This document shows, piece by piece, positions 58,773-64,000 of a stretch of 64,000 nucleotides of DNA. Origin of the DNA: Thalassospiraceae bacterium LMO-JJ14 (lineage in GTDB: Bacteria; Pseudomonadota; Alphaproteobacteria; Rhodospirillales; Casp-alpha2). The stretch spans positions 1,922,001-1,986,000 of the forward strand of contig CP134604.1 in NCBI GenBank assembly GCA_021555105.2, given 5' to 3'. Every line of letters starts with the position of its first letter. Within the stretch, counting starts at the first letter, position 1. The notes under the pieces are model-generated. The model was not told the DNA's origin, made no database searches, and saw only the letters and a list, made by a program, of their open reading frames with translations. Both the position numbers and the translations under genes were made by a program.

Positions 58773-59357
58773 TTAACCGAACAAATCCGCCTGCGCCGGG
58801 GGCGGCGGCTTCTCTTCTTCGAACAGAAGATTTCCTTCATAAGGCACAAGAATGCCGGAAACCTCAGCGAAAGGCTGTGCACCCAGCCATACATCGATCG
58901 TGGGCGGGTCGAGAATTACCGGCATGCGATTGTGGATGTGCGCAATCTTCGGCGTCGGCGTGCAGGTGATGATCGTGAAACGTTCACCATCCGTCAGCCC
59001 GGCCATGCCGAAGACGGGTTCCCCCAAAACCGAAATCCGGTTCTTGAGCTTTTTGCCGCTGTCCGTCTTGCGCCATTCGAAATAGGCACTGGCGGGAACG
59101 ATACAGCGTTTATCCAGCAGTCCGCGAAATGTCGGCTTCTCGCTGAGCGTCTCGCTGCGCGCATTGATCATCGGCTGCTTCGACCAGTCAACGCTAAGCC
59201 CCCACGGCTGCAGAAGGGGGATGTTCCCCATGCCGATGATCAGCGACAGGTCGGTCGGGCGCAACGCAGCCTTGTTCGGCAACGGCGGGTCTTCGTCGAG
59301 GCCGAATGCTGATGAAATGTCGCCGGGCGCGGCATTGAGTTCGAAGTTCGAGCACAT
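58773..59357 (-). CDS. SRAP (YedK/HMCES) peptidase-like DNA-damage protein
   Basis: 194 residues from the ATG at 59357, chosen because family members start with Met-Cys so that Cys2 becomes N-terminal; here MCSNFEL. Other active-site parts: Asn in LSVDWSKQPMINARSETL, Glu in CIVPASAYFEWRK and His in HIHNRMPVIL. Such proteins form a crosslink to abasic sites in single-stranded DNA. The usual MCGRY/F opening is altered to MCSNF. Convergent with aroC. Confidence 0.9.
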   Translation of the reverse strand: MCSNFELNAAPGDISSAFGLDEDPPLPNKAALRPTDLSLIIGMGNIPLLQPWGLSVDWSKQPMINARSETLSEKPTFRGLLDKRCIVPASAYFEWRKTDSGKKLKNRISVLGEPVFGMAGLTDGERFTIITCTPTPKIAHIHNRMPVILDPPTIDVWLGAQPFAEVSGILVPYEGNLLFEEEKPPPPAQADLFG

Positions 59358-59471
59358 GAGCCGATCATAAACATTCACGGCACCCCGTCACCGTTGGAAT
59401 CATGATTTTCTATTGGCGCACAGGGCTTTCAAGCTCTGGCCAGAGGTGCCGCTTTCAAGTACCGTCTGCAC

Positions 59472-60230
59472 ATGAACGACACTCATTCAGACGACGAAGA
59501 TCGCAAGACCGTTATCATCACCGGTGCCAGCCGCGGCATCGGTCATTATACGGCCCGGCTTTTTCTGGAACGCGGCTGGAACATCATCACGTGCTCGCGT
59601 GACGAAGCGCCCGAGGCCTGCAAACGCGAGCCTAAGTGGACCTGCCATATCCCGACCGACCTGGGCGATGACGCCAGCATTCAGAACTTCATCAAGGAAG
59701 CGAAAAAGGCGCTCGGCGGCCATCCGCTGCATGCGCTGGTCAACAACGCCGGCATGTCGCCCAAGACCCCGTACAAGGAACGTCTGGGCATCCTCAATGG
59801 TGATCTCGATGCGTGGCATGACGTGTTCGAGCTGAATTTCTTCGCCCCGCTGAAACTGTCACGGGGTTTCGCCAGCGATCTGCATAAGGGCAAGGGGGCG
59901 ATCGTCAATGTCACATCGATTGCCGGACATTACATTCATCCGTTTGCCGGCTCGGCCTATTCCATATCGAAAACCGCGCTTTCGGGCCTGACGCGCGAAA
60001 TGGCGAACGAGTTCGCGGAACTGGATGTGCGCGTCAATGCCGTGGCACCGGGCGAGATCGAAACCGAGATGGTCGGGCCTGAATACGATCTGCTGATCCC
60101 GCGCATTCCGCTGCAGCGTATGGGAACGCCGGCGGACGTCGCGGGGACGATTTATTATCTTTGTTCGGAAGACAGCCAGTACGTTACCGGTACCGAGGTT
60201 TGGGTGACCGGTGGCCAGCACCTGTTCTGA
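59472..60230 (+). CDS. Short-chain dehydrogenase/reductase
   Basis: 252 residues. The N-terminal cofactor motif is GASRGIGHYTARLFLERGW, then NNAGMSP, the catalytic Ser region VTSIAGHYIHPFAGSAYSISKTAL with Tyr-x3-Lys, and the end TGTEVWVTGGQHLF. Sequence after the Rossmann start (SRDEAP) does not tell NAD from NADP. It sits before the large glycosyltransferase fusion; a role in making or modifying a sugar donor is possible but unproven. Confidence 0.92.
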   Translation: MNDTHSDDEDRKTVIITGASRGIGHYTARLFLERGWNIITCSRDEAPEACKREPKWTCHIPTDLGDDASIQNFIKEAKKALGGHPLHALVNNAGMSPKTPYKERLGILNGDLDAWHDVFELNFFAPLKLSRGFASDLHKGKGAIVNVTSIAGHYIHPFAGSAYSISKTALSGLTREMANEFAELDVRVNAVAPGEIETEMVGPEYDLLIPRIPLQRMGTPADVAGTIYYLCSEDSQYVTGTEVWVTGGQHLF

Positions 60231-60254
60231 TCCGCATTACCCGGGGGAAGGTTT

Positions 60255-63200
60255 ATGGCGGTTCATGTTAAGCCGGTGAAGGTCAGCAAGGCCGCTCAGG
60301 ACGGCGCTGAAAATGCGGTGCATTTCTATCGCCGCGACATCGATGCCCGGCCACGCTCTGCCGGTTCGTTTCTGGGGGCATTCGTCAAACACAGCGGCGT
60401 ATCGGGTTTTTTCTGCCAGTCGCACGACCCCGAGGATTTCGACGACTTCGTCAGCCGTGTAGCCAAGGCCGATACCCAGCAGCGCGAATGCCGTTATGTC
60501 GCGCCGGGTGACCGCAAGGGCTTTCGGGATGCCCCGTTGTTACGGCTGTCCGGACCGGATATCGGGCCCCTGATGTGGCGGCGGCGCACCTTTGGGCAGC
60601 GTCATTATTCCATTGTCGGTGAAATCGAAAACCTTGGGGCGGCGGCAACGCAGGCGGCACTGTGCGATTTGCTGATCGCACCAGCGCAACATTGGGATGC
60701 GGTGGTCTACCCGTCGAAAACGGTCAAGCAGACGGCAGAGCGCCTGTTGCAAATGCAGGCGGAGTACCTGGGTTTCAGGATGGGCGGGGAACACAGCTTC
60801 GGCGGAGTTGGTTTCGTCATTCCGCCAGGTATCAATGCCGGAATGTATGAAGAAACGGCAGAAACGCAGGGTCTGCGAGAAGGCGTGCGGCGGCGGTTGG
60901 GCATCCGCGAAGAAGACTTCTGTGTGCTGACGACGGGGAATTTCGCATTCTATCAGCGTTCCCACCCGACGCCGCTGTATCTGGCGCTTGAAGCAACGGC
61001 GCGACGCACCGGCGTGCGTATTCACCTTTTGCAGGCGGGCTGGTTCGATAATGAGAAAATCGAGCGCGCCTACCGTGAGGCGATCCGTGAATTCGCCCCG
61101 GCGGTGAATGCGATTTTTCTGGATGGGCGCGAGGCTGATATCCGTGACCGGGTATGGTTCGCAGCTGATGCCTATGCCGCCTTCGACGATGCACTGAACC
61201 ATGGCGTCGATACCGAAATGCTTGAGGCGATGGCCGCCGGATTGCCGGTTGTGGCGGCGGATTGGGGCGCCAACAGGGATATCGTCGCGAATGGCGAAAA
61301 CGGCTATCTGGTGCCGACCTGGCTGCCGCTACCGGAAAGCGGCGGCGATCTGACGCTGGCGCCCGAAAACGAGATCATGGGGGCGGACGGGCTAAGGGCC
61401 GATACGTTTCTTGCCGGGACCGTCAGCCAGACGACGGTCATCGACATTCGTGCGGCAGCGGAAACATTCGAAGCTTTGGCCGGAGATATGGGGCACCGCC
61501 GTAAAATGAGTGCCGCTGCGCGCCAAGCCGCGCTGCAGACCTATGACTGGCCGGTCGTCATCCGGCGACATCAGGCATTATGGTCGGAACTTCGACGGGT
61601 TCGCGCCGATGCTGCGGAAATCGCACCGCCGATCCCCGGGCGTCCGGCGATCCCGCATCTGGATGATCCATTTTCCGTATTCAAGGCATATGCGACGCAT
61701 GCCATCTCGGAACATGCCCGGGTGTCTTTGTCGCCCGGCATCGAACGCGGCGAAGGTGTGGCGAACCGCCTCAAGCGTATTCGCTCCAACCCCATCAATG
61801 ATACGGCGGGGCACGCCCTTCTGGAACCCGATGAGCAAGATCACTGCCTGTCCCACCTGTCGGAGCGCGAGGCGGTTGAGGTCATTCAACTCGCCGAACT
61901 GCTGCCCGAAAAGCGGCGTTACCGCTTGCCCAGAACCCTGGGCTGGTTGGCGAAGATGGGCGTGGTCCGTCTGACGCCGTCGGCGCAGCCGGATAAACCC
62001 GGCCAAGAGGATGCGCAGGTCGGTGTTTCGATGGTCGATCTCGGGCTGACGGCACGCAGACAGGGGTCGGATAAGGCGGCGGCGGAATATTTTCAGAATG
62101 CCCTGGCGCAAAATCCGACCGACCCGCTTGCCAATCAATTCATGGGCGAACTATTGGCCGAAGCGCATCATCTCGATCAGGCGGTCAATTATTTTGAAAA
62201 GGCCGTTGCCGGCAATCCAACGGCCGTCGATGCCAGGCTCGACCTCGGCAAGGCGCTGTTCCTGAGGGGTGATCAGCAGGGAGGGATCGCGTATCTGCAG
62301 GATGCCGTGTCCCTGGCGCCCGAGAATGCAGACGCGCATTACCTGCTGGGCGCGGCTTACCGGCATGTGGGTGCCGCGGATGAGGCGGTCAAATCGCTGG
62401 AGCGCAGCCTGCGCCTGAGCCCGAAGCGGATCGAGGCGTTGGTGCATCTTGGGTATGCCCGAAAAAGTGCCGGCCGGCGGGCCGAAGCTTTGCAGGCTTT
62501 TAAGGATGCCTTACGGCTGGCCCCAGGAAACCTGCTCGCGCATGCCGGTGAAATGAGCCTCGCCGTCGAACGTGACGGGCGCAAACTTGTCGAACGCGAT
62601 AGCAGGGCCCGCCGGGTTGCACTTCATTTCAATGGTGCGGAACAGTTCTACCCTCTGTCCGCACTGTTCAGGCAGGCACAATCCTCACATTGGCCGCTTC
62701 TCACATCGGATGGACGCGATCTCGTCGAATTCAAACCGGATGTCATCGTGGTCGGCGGGACGCAGACGGCGCAGGTGCGCGAACTGGTTCCCAATGCGCT
62801 GATTATCTCGGCACCGGTGTTTCTTGCCTCGCAAAACCGTTTCCGGGCGGCATTCGATGGCGCGGATATTGTTTGTGCGCCGGGGCAAATTGTCGGTGAT
62901 GCCTGGGTTAAGCTGGGCCTTGCCGAGGCTTTGCAGGTCAGGGTCTGCGGTCATTTGCCGCTGGACCCGTTGTTCAGAGGCGATACGCTCCCAACGCCAA
63001 GGCCCCTCATGGATGCGTCGGCAACCGTGCTATATGCGCCCGGACACCGGCCGCAGCTTTCATCGGCGGGAATGCTTGGCGAGAATATCGTCGATTTGAT
63101 CCGCGGTGCACGTCATGACGTCACGCTGGTGATCAAGCCGCACCCCGAAACCTTTATCCGCCAACCCAAATGGATTGAAACGTGGGCCAGAGCGGCACAT

Positions 63201-63584
63201 GAACACGAACGAGTCTTTTTTGTCGACGACCCGGAAACCGACCTGTTGCCATACCTCAAAGCAGCCGATGTGCTGGTGAGCGATGTATCCAGCGTGGTTT
63301 TCGATTATCTGGCCGTCGACCGCCCGATTATTCTGCTGAAAAACCCGGAATATTCCGCGGACGAGGCCGCTTACGACCCGCAAGGGATCGAATGGCGTTG
63401 GCGCGAAATCGGCCGGGACGTCGCCCGAACAGAGGATCTGGCCCGTGCCGTCGATCTTGCCCTTAAAACCCCCGATGCGGGTATGGAATTGCGCACACGC
63501 TATCGTGACGCCCTGTTCGGCGAGACCATGGACGGGGCAACGGCCGAACGGATGGTTGAGTTGATATCAGAGTTATCCACTTAA
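60255..63584 (+). CDS. Glycosyltransferase / TPR / CDP-glycerophosphotransferase-like fusion
   Basis: 1109 residues, GGGGGAAGG upstream of the ATG. Residues 1-450 are a GT4-like glycosyltransferase; the donor-binding motif is HGVDTEMLEAMAAGLPVVAAD near 316-336 (quoted here in pieces: DTEMLEAMAAG, LPVVAADWG). Residues about 590-775 hold five TPR units (for example ADAHYLLGAAYRHVGAADEA). Residues about 820-1109 match the TagF/TagB glycerophosphotransferase fold: VIKPHPE near 960, DVSSVVFDYLAVDRPI near 1010. It probably builds a surface polysaccharide or glycerophosphate polymer in the cytoplasm. Substrates unknown. Confidence 0.85.
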   Translation: MAVHVKPVKVSKAAQDGAENAVHFYRRDIDARPRSAGSFLGAFVKHSGVSGFFCQSHDPEDFDDFVSRVAKADTQQRECRYVAPGDRKGFRDAPLLRLSGPDIGPLMWRRRTFGQRHYSIVGEIENLGAAATQAALCDLLIAPAQHWDAVVYPSKTVKQTAERLLQMQAEYLGFRMGGEHSFGGVGFVIPPGINAGMYEETAETQGLREGVRRRLGIREEDFCVLTTGNFAFYQRSHPTPLYLALEATARRTGVRIHLLQAGWFDNEKIERAYREAIREFAPAVNAIFLDGREADIRDRVWFAADAYAAFDDALNHGVDTEMLEAMAAGLPVVAADWGANRDIVANGENGYLVPTWLPLPESGGDLTLAPENEIMGADGLRADTFLAGTVSQTTVIDIRAAAETFEALAGDMGHRRKMSAAARQAALQTYDWPVVIRRHQALWSELRRVRADAAEIAPPIPGRPAIPHLDDPFSVFKAYATHAISEHARVSLSPGIERGEGVANRLKRIRSNPINDTAGHALLEPDEQDHCLSHLSEREAVEVIQLAELLPEKRRYRLPRTLGWLAKMGVVRLTPSAQPDKPGQEDAQVGVSMVDLGLTARRQGSDKAAAEYFQNALAQNPTDPLANQFMGELLAEAHHLDQAVNYFEKAVAGNPTAVDARLDLGKALFLRGDQQGGIAYLQDAVSLAPENADAHYLLGAAYRHVGAADEAVKSLERSLRLSPKRIEALVHLGYARKSAGRRAEALQAFKDALRLAPGNLLAHAGEMSLAVERDGRKLVERDSRARRVALHFNGAEQFYPLSALFRQAQSSHWPLLTSDGRDLVEFKPDVIVVGGTQTAQVRELVPNALIISAPVFLASQNRFRAAFDGADIVCAPGQIVGDAWVKLGLAEALQVRVCGHLPLDPLFRGDTLPTPRPLMDASATVLYAPGHRPQLSSAGMLGENIVDLIRGARHDVTLVIKPHPETFIRQPKWIETWARAAHEHERVFFVDDPETDLLPYLKAADVLVSDVSSVVFDYLAVDRPIILLKNPEYSADEAAYDPQGIEWRWREIGRDVARTEDLARAVDLALKTPDAGMELRTRYRDALFGETMDGATAERMVELISELST

Positions 63585-63673: not shown

Positions 63674-64000
63674 ATGGCAGACAAAGCTGCCGGCAAGACG
63701 GACAATGCCGCCGAGAATCCGCAGAAAGGTATCGCGGACAGTCTGGATGCGATGATTACGGATGGCCATGACGTTATCCTTCCCTCATCCGGCGCGCTTG
63801 AAGACGTCCTGCTTGAGCCGCCGAGCCCATTGTGGATCCGCTGGAAACTGCTGCCGCTGGGTGCCGCCGCCGCGACGGCGGCCTGGTTCTGGTTCTCGTA
63901 TCAGTTTGTCGAACTGAACCTCGGCTGGAATAATCTGGCGGCTTTGTTGCCTCATGAACTGGGCGGTCTTGCCGCCGGTGTCGCCACGCCCGTGGCGTTG
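63674..64000 (+). CDS. Membrane protein of unknown function (3' end beyond window)
   Basis: 109 residues are visible, from the ATG at 63674 with GGAGG at about ten bases, to the right edge. A polar N-terminus (ADKAAGKTDNAAENPQKG) is followed by a hydrophobic segment (LLPLGAAAATAAWFWFSY) and a second near the edge (LAAGVATPVAL). Too little is seen to assign a family. Confidence 0.6.
   Translation, partial: MADKAAGKTDNAAENPQKGIADSLDAMITDGHDVILPSSGALEDVLLEPPSPLWIRWKLLPLGAAAATAAWFWFSYQFVELNLGWNNLAALLPHELGGLAAGVATPVAL

Follow-up and report, generated by a model that had tools for sequence, protein, structure and literature searches.

Does a protein that combines a glycosyltransferase of the GT4 type, a set of tetratricopeptide repeats (TPR) and a TagF-like domain in one chain still make a surface polymer, or has it been turned to another use? 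The question is raised by a gene near the right edge of a 64,000-nucleotide stretch of DNA from Thalassospiraceae bacterium LMO-JJ14, here called the window. (Coordinates are positions within the window, or within a locus where an L number precedes them; L and G numbers denote the loci and genomes compared.) The original prediction had proposed that this fusion produces a polymer alternating sugar and polyol phosphate. The answer to which we tentatively lean is that an ancestral enzyme using both a sugar donor and a cytidine diphosphate (CDP)-polyol was remodelled in the genus of the window's strain, where it may be kept by selection in a role other than that of a canonical polymerase. The parts and the key residues of the fusion are as follows.

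60255-63584, plus strand: fusion coding sequence, 1109 amino acids, order GT4 - winged-helix-like - TPR - TagF-like (ORF analysis, Pfam, AlphaFold2, tree)
60303-61604, plus strand: GT4-type GT-B domain, residues 17-450 (Pfam Glyco_trans_1_4, AlphaFold2, VIA-align)
60939-60959, plus strand: N229 and R235, at the positions of the diphosphate-binding Arg and Lys (Cps3D R982/K987; MshA R231/K236)
61200-61226, plus strand: H316 to E324, an EX7E motif with the first Glu replaced by His and the second Glu kept
61635-62003, plus strand: winged-helix-like segment, residues 461-583 (named from the helix/strand order in the AlphaFold2 model, with no database match behind the name)
62022-62570, plus strand: five TPR units and a capping helix, residues 590-772 (Pfam, AlphaFold2, match to the TPR of MamA)
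62586-63581, plus strand: TagF-like (PF04464) domain, residues 778-1109 (Pfam, PDB relatives)
62817-62819, plus strand: V855, at the putative position of the WHG-type base His (TagF H444/Cps3D H479), as judged from motif and order
63135-63146, plus strand: KPHP, starting at residue 961, with H963 at the position of TagF H584/Cps3D H609
63282-63308, plus strand: DVSSVVFDY, starting at residue 1010, with S1012, S1013 and D1017 at the positions of Cps3D S647/S648/D652

The open reading frame (ORF) is intact and contains the KPHP and DVSSVVFDY motifs as predicted; its ATG start is preceded by a purine-rich stretch (60243-60251). The domain search found the predicted GT4-like, TPR and TagF-like parts, all over their Pfam cut-offs: Glyco_trans_1_4 with 53.7 bits (cut-off 27, best stretch 244-354), TPR_2 with 74.3 bits in five stretches (over the curated cut-off) and Glyphos_transf (PF04464) with 56.1 bits (cut-off 22.1) at residues 919-1105. 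The last match covers profile positions 189-366 of 367, that is the C-terminal half only. The best PDB relatives of this part were TarL, TagF and Cps3D, in agreement with a TagF-like domain and not with another transferase family. AlphaFold2 produced a complete GT-B fold over residues 17-450, confident for most of them. The model of the GT4 half was matched by VIA-align to PimB' (3oka) with Z 24.6 and a root-mean-square deviation of 3.4 over 350 aligned residues, and to MshA and BshA with Z about 24. The TPR bridge, whose structure the original prediction had suggested modelling, came out as five helix pairs with a structural match to the MamA TPR. Two features went beyond that prediction, the winged-helix-like segment (461-583) and the altered active sites. 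For the TagF-like half the AlphaFold2 alignment contained no homologs, and the predicted local distance difference test score was mostly below 50 in the full-length model and 37 on average when this half was run alone; the model was left unused, and the GT-B fold of this half is assumed from PF04464. No transmembrane (TM) segment was detected in the fusion by hydropathy, hence the protein is presumably cytoplasmic and soluble.

The GT4 donor site differs from that of its relatives. In the GT4-type domain of Cps3D, R982 and K987 were reported to be crucial for activity, and E1059 and E1067 form the EX7E motif (PMC11666461). In the residue alignment, R229, K235, E316 and E324 (numbering of the window fusion) were present in 45/45 standalone GT4 relatives, a count that leaves out L059, which is labelled as standalone but runs off its contig and sits in the window's clade. 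The window fusion, L040-L043 and the contig-cut L014, L018 and L059 have N, R, H and E at the four positions. Throughout this clade the altered sequence, HG[VAL]D[TS]E, is in turn conserved. All four residues (R, K, E, E) were found in 14 of the 21 fusion rows other than the window; elsewhere the positions read R, Q, E, E (L046), H, M, E, E (L055) or R, G, D, A (L052). These alignments suggest that the GT4 donor site was remodelled in the window's genus (N229/R235/H316).

The TagF-like half appears to be changed at one of its two catalytic His positions. In the corresponding domain of Cps3D, H479 and H609 are described as crucial, and S647, S648 and D652 as conserved with TagF (PMC11666461); TagF H444 lies within the WHG motif according to the same source. 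Because the sequence alignment with TagF, TarL and Cps3D stops short of the WHG position, V855 was placed there by motif order. The KPHP His is present in 19 of 22 fusions and the base His in four (L047, L053, L199 and L200); 4/22 are intact at each of the seven positions compared (R, K, E, E, the two His and the first Ser). Both standalone C-terminal halves of the family (L057 and L058) have the base His. It is found as well in the two strong relatives from outside the order, L217 and L218, for which reason V855 in its place looks like a derived state. Catalytic residues were lost in further lineages too (L052, L054-L056 and L201).

Despite these changes the gene is maintained. The frame is kept over its whole length in four genomes of the same genus, at 83, 82, 71 and 59% identity, and the ratio of nonsynonymous to synonymous substitution rates (dN/dS) was below 0.45 in every segment and pair with estimable dS, synonymous sites being near saturation. 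The fusion ORF is thus not a chance frame, and it is under purifying selection in the window's genus. In pairwise comparison of G000, G001 and G002 (three pairs) the C-terminal lobe of the GT4 domain had the lowest estimable dN/dS of all segments (0.020-0.035, with the same near-saturation of synonymous sites). Evolution is faster in the TagF-like half than in this lobe (0.034-0.127 in the same pairs).

Damaged copies occur among the relatives. In G023 (L198) pieces corresponding to residues 13-39 and 854-1114 remain, spread over three frames, in the space between the two genes that flank the fusion elsewhere, a short-chain dehydrogenase/reductase (SDR) gene and a giant gene described below. 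In G032 (L219) the match is limited to residues 5-207 and lies directly before the giant gene, in G033 one piece of the fusion contains 15 in-frame stops, and in G029 residues about 562-907 are lost. This distribution points to repeated loss of the fusion among relatives, although the genomes concerned are drafts. L026 is a further decayed or truncated copy. In the draft L202 the fusion and the RgsE-like (giant) gene are each split over two overlapping frames.

Among 61 genomes, that of the window and 60 relatives, 18 have near full-length fusions, 14 as a single match and 4 as two pieces in one frame. The TagF-like half turned up in 27/248 genomes of the order (E <= 1e-12, weak matches included) and in 12 of 385 genomes sampled from the class (E <= 1e-15, counting that of the window). 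In the 385-genome sample only G527 and G599 had strong relatives of this half beyond the order, and a scan of viral contigs found none. The N-terminal half has a different distribution. In a scan with a GT4 pattern (best 80 of 162 matches), GT4 plus winged-helix-like segment on its own was a widespread protein of about 550 amino acids in Alphaproteobacteria, Cyanobacteria and others. These standalone relatives share 24-35% identity with the GT4 module of the window fusion, and most end in a weaker match to the winged-helix-like segment. In a quick tree of 75 GT4 plus winged-helix sequences, built without bootstrap, the fusions form one branch (SH-aLRT 98), so a single origin of the fusion is most likely. 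The contig-end-cut L024, grouped as standalone in this tree, falls within the fusion branch; L014, L018 and L059, all cut at their ends, were counted as fusions by clade only. L014 and L059, the latter from a metagenome genome labelled 'Rhodospirillales bacterium', are identical in the tree. An unfused arrangement was seen in Nisaea nitritireducens (L070:6914-11612), where a standalone GT4 winged-helix gene overlaps a 602-residue TPR ORF, followed by a GT28-C-like ORF.

The supply of a donor for the TagF-like half was sought in the genomes. The CDP-glycerol synthase model TIGR01518 exceeded its cut-off in 0/61 genomes; its weak matches, in open frames of mostly about 490-700 amino acids, we take to be other cytidylyltransferases (HldE-type). 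This result, together with the residue tables, weakened the analogy with the glycerophosphate polymers of Gram-positive bacteria. In the window's genome there is one full-length IspD match (226 bits), the others being weak and partial (next 35.6 bits). Elsewhere IspD-like genes lie next to relatives of the fusion. In G045 (L053:1141-9766) a second IspD-like gene (116.6 bits) is located between the fusion, which has all seven residues, and the RgsE-like gene. In G527 (L217:7197-10491), of another alphaproteobacterial order, a TPR plus TagF-like ORF shares 4 bp with an IspD-like gene that scores 123 bits with PF01128 and falls below the IspD equivalog cut-off (136.7 vs 181.3); then comes a gene with a mannitol-dehydrogenase C-terminal domain (Mannitol_dh_C 71.9 bits, cut-off 30.7). 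Since relatives that keep more of the residues adjoin an IspD-like gene in these two genomes, a CDP-polyol is a plausible donor for the TagF-like half of the ancestor. The apparent L217 operon itself suggests a CDP-polyol pathway. CDP-mannitol as the donor is a guess, and was not adopted: the dehydrogenase-like gene scores 102.8 against a mannitol-1-phosphate dehydrogenase cut-off of 404, and a search of the literature on this donor turned up nothing of use. A second IspD-like match in G599 lies on another contig and has an in-frame stop, and was not counted as adjacent support.

The genes around the fusion offered a second view of its role.

58773-59378, minus strand: SRAP-family gene, divergent, a conserved neighbour (Pfam)
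59472-60230, plus strand: SDR gene, 24 bp upstream of the fusion (Pfam)
63674-64000, plus strand: start of a giant RgsE/GPR-related gene, which continues past the window to 1385 amino acids (L039:2675-6832)

The giant gene starts 89 bp after the stop codon of the fusion. The annotated neighbours of the fusion are SDR, SRAP, RgsE-like, CobA-like and COX15-type genes; no polysaccharide or capsule gene and no flagellin or adhesin gene was among them. The context beyond the right edge, which the original prediction had suggested examining, includes the rest of the RgsE/GPR-related gene. With the window included through its own flanks, the SDR gene precedes the fusion in 20/21 loci with a readable upstream side (the exception is L053), and the giant gene is next downstream in 18/20 readable loci; L199, L200 and L051 reach a contig edge on one side. 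In L053 the giant gene follows after one gene, and in the stretch fetched for L201 it was not found downstream of the fusion. Long antisense ORFs overlie the SDR gene in L047 and L048 and the RgsE-like and IspD-like genes in L053. The SDR gene lies upstream of the giant gene also in 13 of 16 loci that we selected for lacking an intact fusion, and in 10 of these 13, the remnant-bearing L198 among them, no ORF of at least 120 amino acids was listed between the two. The gap as an insertion hotspot was considered, with unrelated genes occupying it in L184, L185 and L194, but dropped, as the RgsE-like gene is next in 18/20 fusion loci.

The giant gene was present in 52/61 relatives and in 37/37 of the better genomes, and on this count it is core; the fusion is not. 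Near the N-terminus, one hydrophobic segment passes the threshold in the product from the window's genome, as against two in those of L044 and L053, and the body is nearly free of proline (one in residues 121-1270). Of 10 named genomes, three matched a profile of the C-terminal domain: Dongia mobilis (5.0e-33, 1691-residue frame), Microvirga terrestris (7.8e-29, 1620-residue frame) and, more weakly, Paenirhodobacter enshiensis (3.4e-7, 377-residue frame). There was no match at E <= 0.01 in the other seven, Brevundimonas and Azospirillum included. Microvirga is a member of the Rhizobiales, and the protein matched there is presumably RgsE. The likeness to RgsE/GPR thus comprises the size class, an N-terminal anchor, a long helical body and a C-terminal domain shared with Rhizobiales, and it supports an RgsE/GPR relationship of the downstream gene. 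RgsE homologs were reported in all families of Rhizobiales, with distant ones in Rhodospirillales (PMC7327166). For GPR, which is essential for polar growth, anchoring through two TM domains at the N-terminus is predicted (PMC8262873); the giant protein is shorter (1385 vs 2115 amino acids), and its copy in the window's genome did not show two TM segments. In Brucella, RgsE is found at the new pole, and lipopolysaccharide-transport proteins at growth sites (PMC9938171).

Taken together, we tentatively prefer an ancestral bifunctional CDP-polyol/sugar enzyme that was remodelled in the window's genus and is kept by selection as something other than a canonical polymerase. Two GT-B-type domains, joined by the winged-helix-like segment and five TPRs, are encoded between the SDR gene and the gene of a putatively membrane-anchored RgsE/GPR-type scaffold. 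For the ancestor we infer that the GT4 half transferred a sugar, that the TagF-like half took polyol phosphate for transfer from a CDP-polyol, itself the product of an IspD-like enzyme, and that the TPRs held or positioned the acceptor (or a partner) at the inner membrane. The window's genus has most likely lost this chemistry of two steps, with the donor site remodelled, the base His gone and no CDP-polyol synthase detected by two models. Because canonical residues are missing at both sites and yet the gene is under purifying selection, the present protein probably serves for binding or scaffolding, or at most catalyses one altered transfer reaction, beside the RgsE-like protein. Several observations weigh against this explanation. 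H963, S1012, S1013 and D1017 are retained in the TagF-like half, the equivalence of V855 with the base His follows motif order and not structure, and R235 is still basic. The weightiest objection is that loss of the first Glu can mean another donor instead of inactivity, as the active WsaF suggests (PMC3898925). CDP-polyol synthesis was sought with TIGR01518 and PF01128 only, and the link of the TagF-like residues to IspD is not strict, since in G264, G241 and G017 the base His is present although no second IspD match of full length was detected. The decay in relatives was seen in draft genomes. Finally, the SDR and giant genes adjoin with or without the fusion, so the position of the fusion may be inherited synteny and not functional. 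A bolder version of the same idea looks rather unlikely: the SDR gene, the fusion and the RgsE-like gene would form one functional unit, in which the fusion, a former transferase and now a conserved double pseudo-enzyme, binds glycan or CDP-polyol, senses or recruits the polymer, and partners the polar scaffold, linking envelope polymer synthesis to the pole.

Retained activity of the GT4 half is the alternative with a modest chance of being right. The protein would be a glycosyltransferase switched to an unusual nucleotide sugar, with the TagF-like half serving as a non-catalytic acceptor or binding domain. The conservation of HG[VAL]D[TS]E in the clade, the low dN/dS of the GT4 C-terminal lobe in the G000/G001/G002 pairs and the kept second Glu (E324) all fit, and WsaF, described as an active GT4 rhamnosyltransferase in which the proline-rich, His-containing PHPSYPPLE replaces EX7E (PMC3898925), is the precedent on which a donor switch after loss of the first Glu would be argued. 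In WsaF, however, positively charged groups hold the donor diphosphate (PMC3898925), and in the window the R229 and K235 positions are changed as well. A TPR-guided enzyme is another candidate, to which we give little weight: here the TPRs and the C-terminal part would act on a protein acceptor, such as the RgsE-like neighbour or an envelope protein, in the manner of FlmG or OGT. The TPRs stand directly before a GT-B-type domain as in FlmG (PMC7591256), two further alphaproteobacterial genomes encode separate TPR plus TagF-like proteins (L217 and L218), and SPINDLY and OGT were among the Foldseek matches. The phmmer match of the fusion to OGT/SPINDLY, on the other hand, lies in the TPR region, the C-terminal half matches PF04464 with no OGT-family Pfam model among the 25 families listed, no flagellin or adhesin gene was annotated nearby, and the base His is lost.

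An active bifunctional polymerase, as the original prediction had it, we regard as distinctly improbable. It would account for the three modules shared with Cps3D/Cps7D, for the kept KPHP and DxSS regions and for the G045 relative, where an IspD-like gene adjoins a fusion with both His and all four residues of the GT4 site; a partial PF05159 (Capsule_synth) match is present elsewhere in the window's genome (27 bits, cut-off 20, positions 144-262 of 310 only). Export of a capsule by KpsC/KpsS was set aside with this one partial match, no search having been made for KpsM/KpsT. Set against these are the change of R, K, first Glu and base His in the window, the 0/61 result with TIGR01518, the single full-length IspD of the window's genome and the lack of capsule genes among the annotated neighbours. 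A sugar/polyol-phosphate surface polymer from the window fusion is therefore left as doubtful, and the idea is saved in part, for the ancestor, by the IspD-like gene beside relatives. A separate region of the window's genome (L220:513-19523) contains a NeuB-family gene and ORFs weakly matching the GT4 profile; no link to the fusion was drawn. Simple decay of a gene without important function would explain the broken or truncated copies in G023, G029, G032 and G033 and the residue losses in L052, L054-L056 and L201, and is very improbable for the window's genus, where the frame is intact and dN/dS low.

The fusion extends the architecture of glycosyltransferase, TPR and TagF-like domains by a new domain order and by a chromosomal locus beside an RgsE/GPR-type gene. 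The relatives form a natural series, from the complete G045 fusion with its IspD-type gene through fusions that lost residues of one half or the other to broken copies. Should the link to the RgsE-like scaffold be true, it would provide a handle on the role of RgsE homologs outside Rhizobiales, a point left open by PMC7327166; should it be false, the fusion would be a warning against taking KPHP and DxSS motifs by themselves as proof of an active TagF-like enzyme.

The original prediction took a TagF-like half fused to a sugar transferase in a proteobacterium as a sign of an unusual polymer. The architecture as such has precedents in Gram-negative bacteria: TagF-like capsule polymerases with known products are described that combine GT-A with TagF-like or TagF-like with GT-B domains, most with TPR at one end (PMC5974469, PMC11666461). 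No earlier report of the present fusion was found in the open literature, most subscription papers lying outside that search. Its N-terminal module is the same as in the standalone GT4 winged-helix proteins, most of which end after the winged-helix-like segment. With MshA, PimB' and BshA the GT4 half shares the whole GT-B fold and the second EX7E Glu, and differs in having N229, R235 and H316 for Arg, Lys and the first Glu. TagF (3l7i) and TarL (8va1) belong to the same TagF-like family, and their KPHP- and DxSS-type regions align with those of the fusion, which differs by V855 at the presumed WHG base-His position and by the lack of a CDP-glycerol synthase model over cut-off. FlmG, the flagellin glycosyltransferase of Caulobacter, has TPR followed by a GT-B domain (PMC7591256) and is the closest counterpart for that arrangement. 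The fusion is predicted to resemble it in having TPRs directly before a GT-B-type domain, and is unlike it in its extra GT4 winged-helix half, its TagF-like C-terminal domain and the absence of a flagellin gene nearby. The closest comparison is with Cps3D/Cps7D of Actinobacillus pleuropneumoniae (8qoy), where TPR, a TagF-like GT-B domain and a GT4-type GT-B domain are likewise found in one chain. There the order is TPR-TagF-GT4, whereas the window fusion is arranged as GT4, winged-helix-like segment, TPR and TagF; the Cps3D residues R982, K987, the first EX7E Glu and the base His H479 are changed, the last by presumed position; and the context of Cps3D/Cps7D is a capsule cluster with CDP-glycerol supply, neither of which was found for the fusion in the genes and models checked. 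Because order, several key residues and context differ, we would not file the fusion as a member of the Cps3D/Cps7D family; as judged from its sequence, it appears to represent a new domain order of the known architecture of glycosyltransferase, TPR and TagF-like domains.

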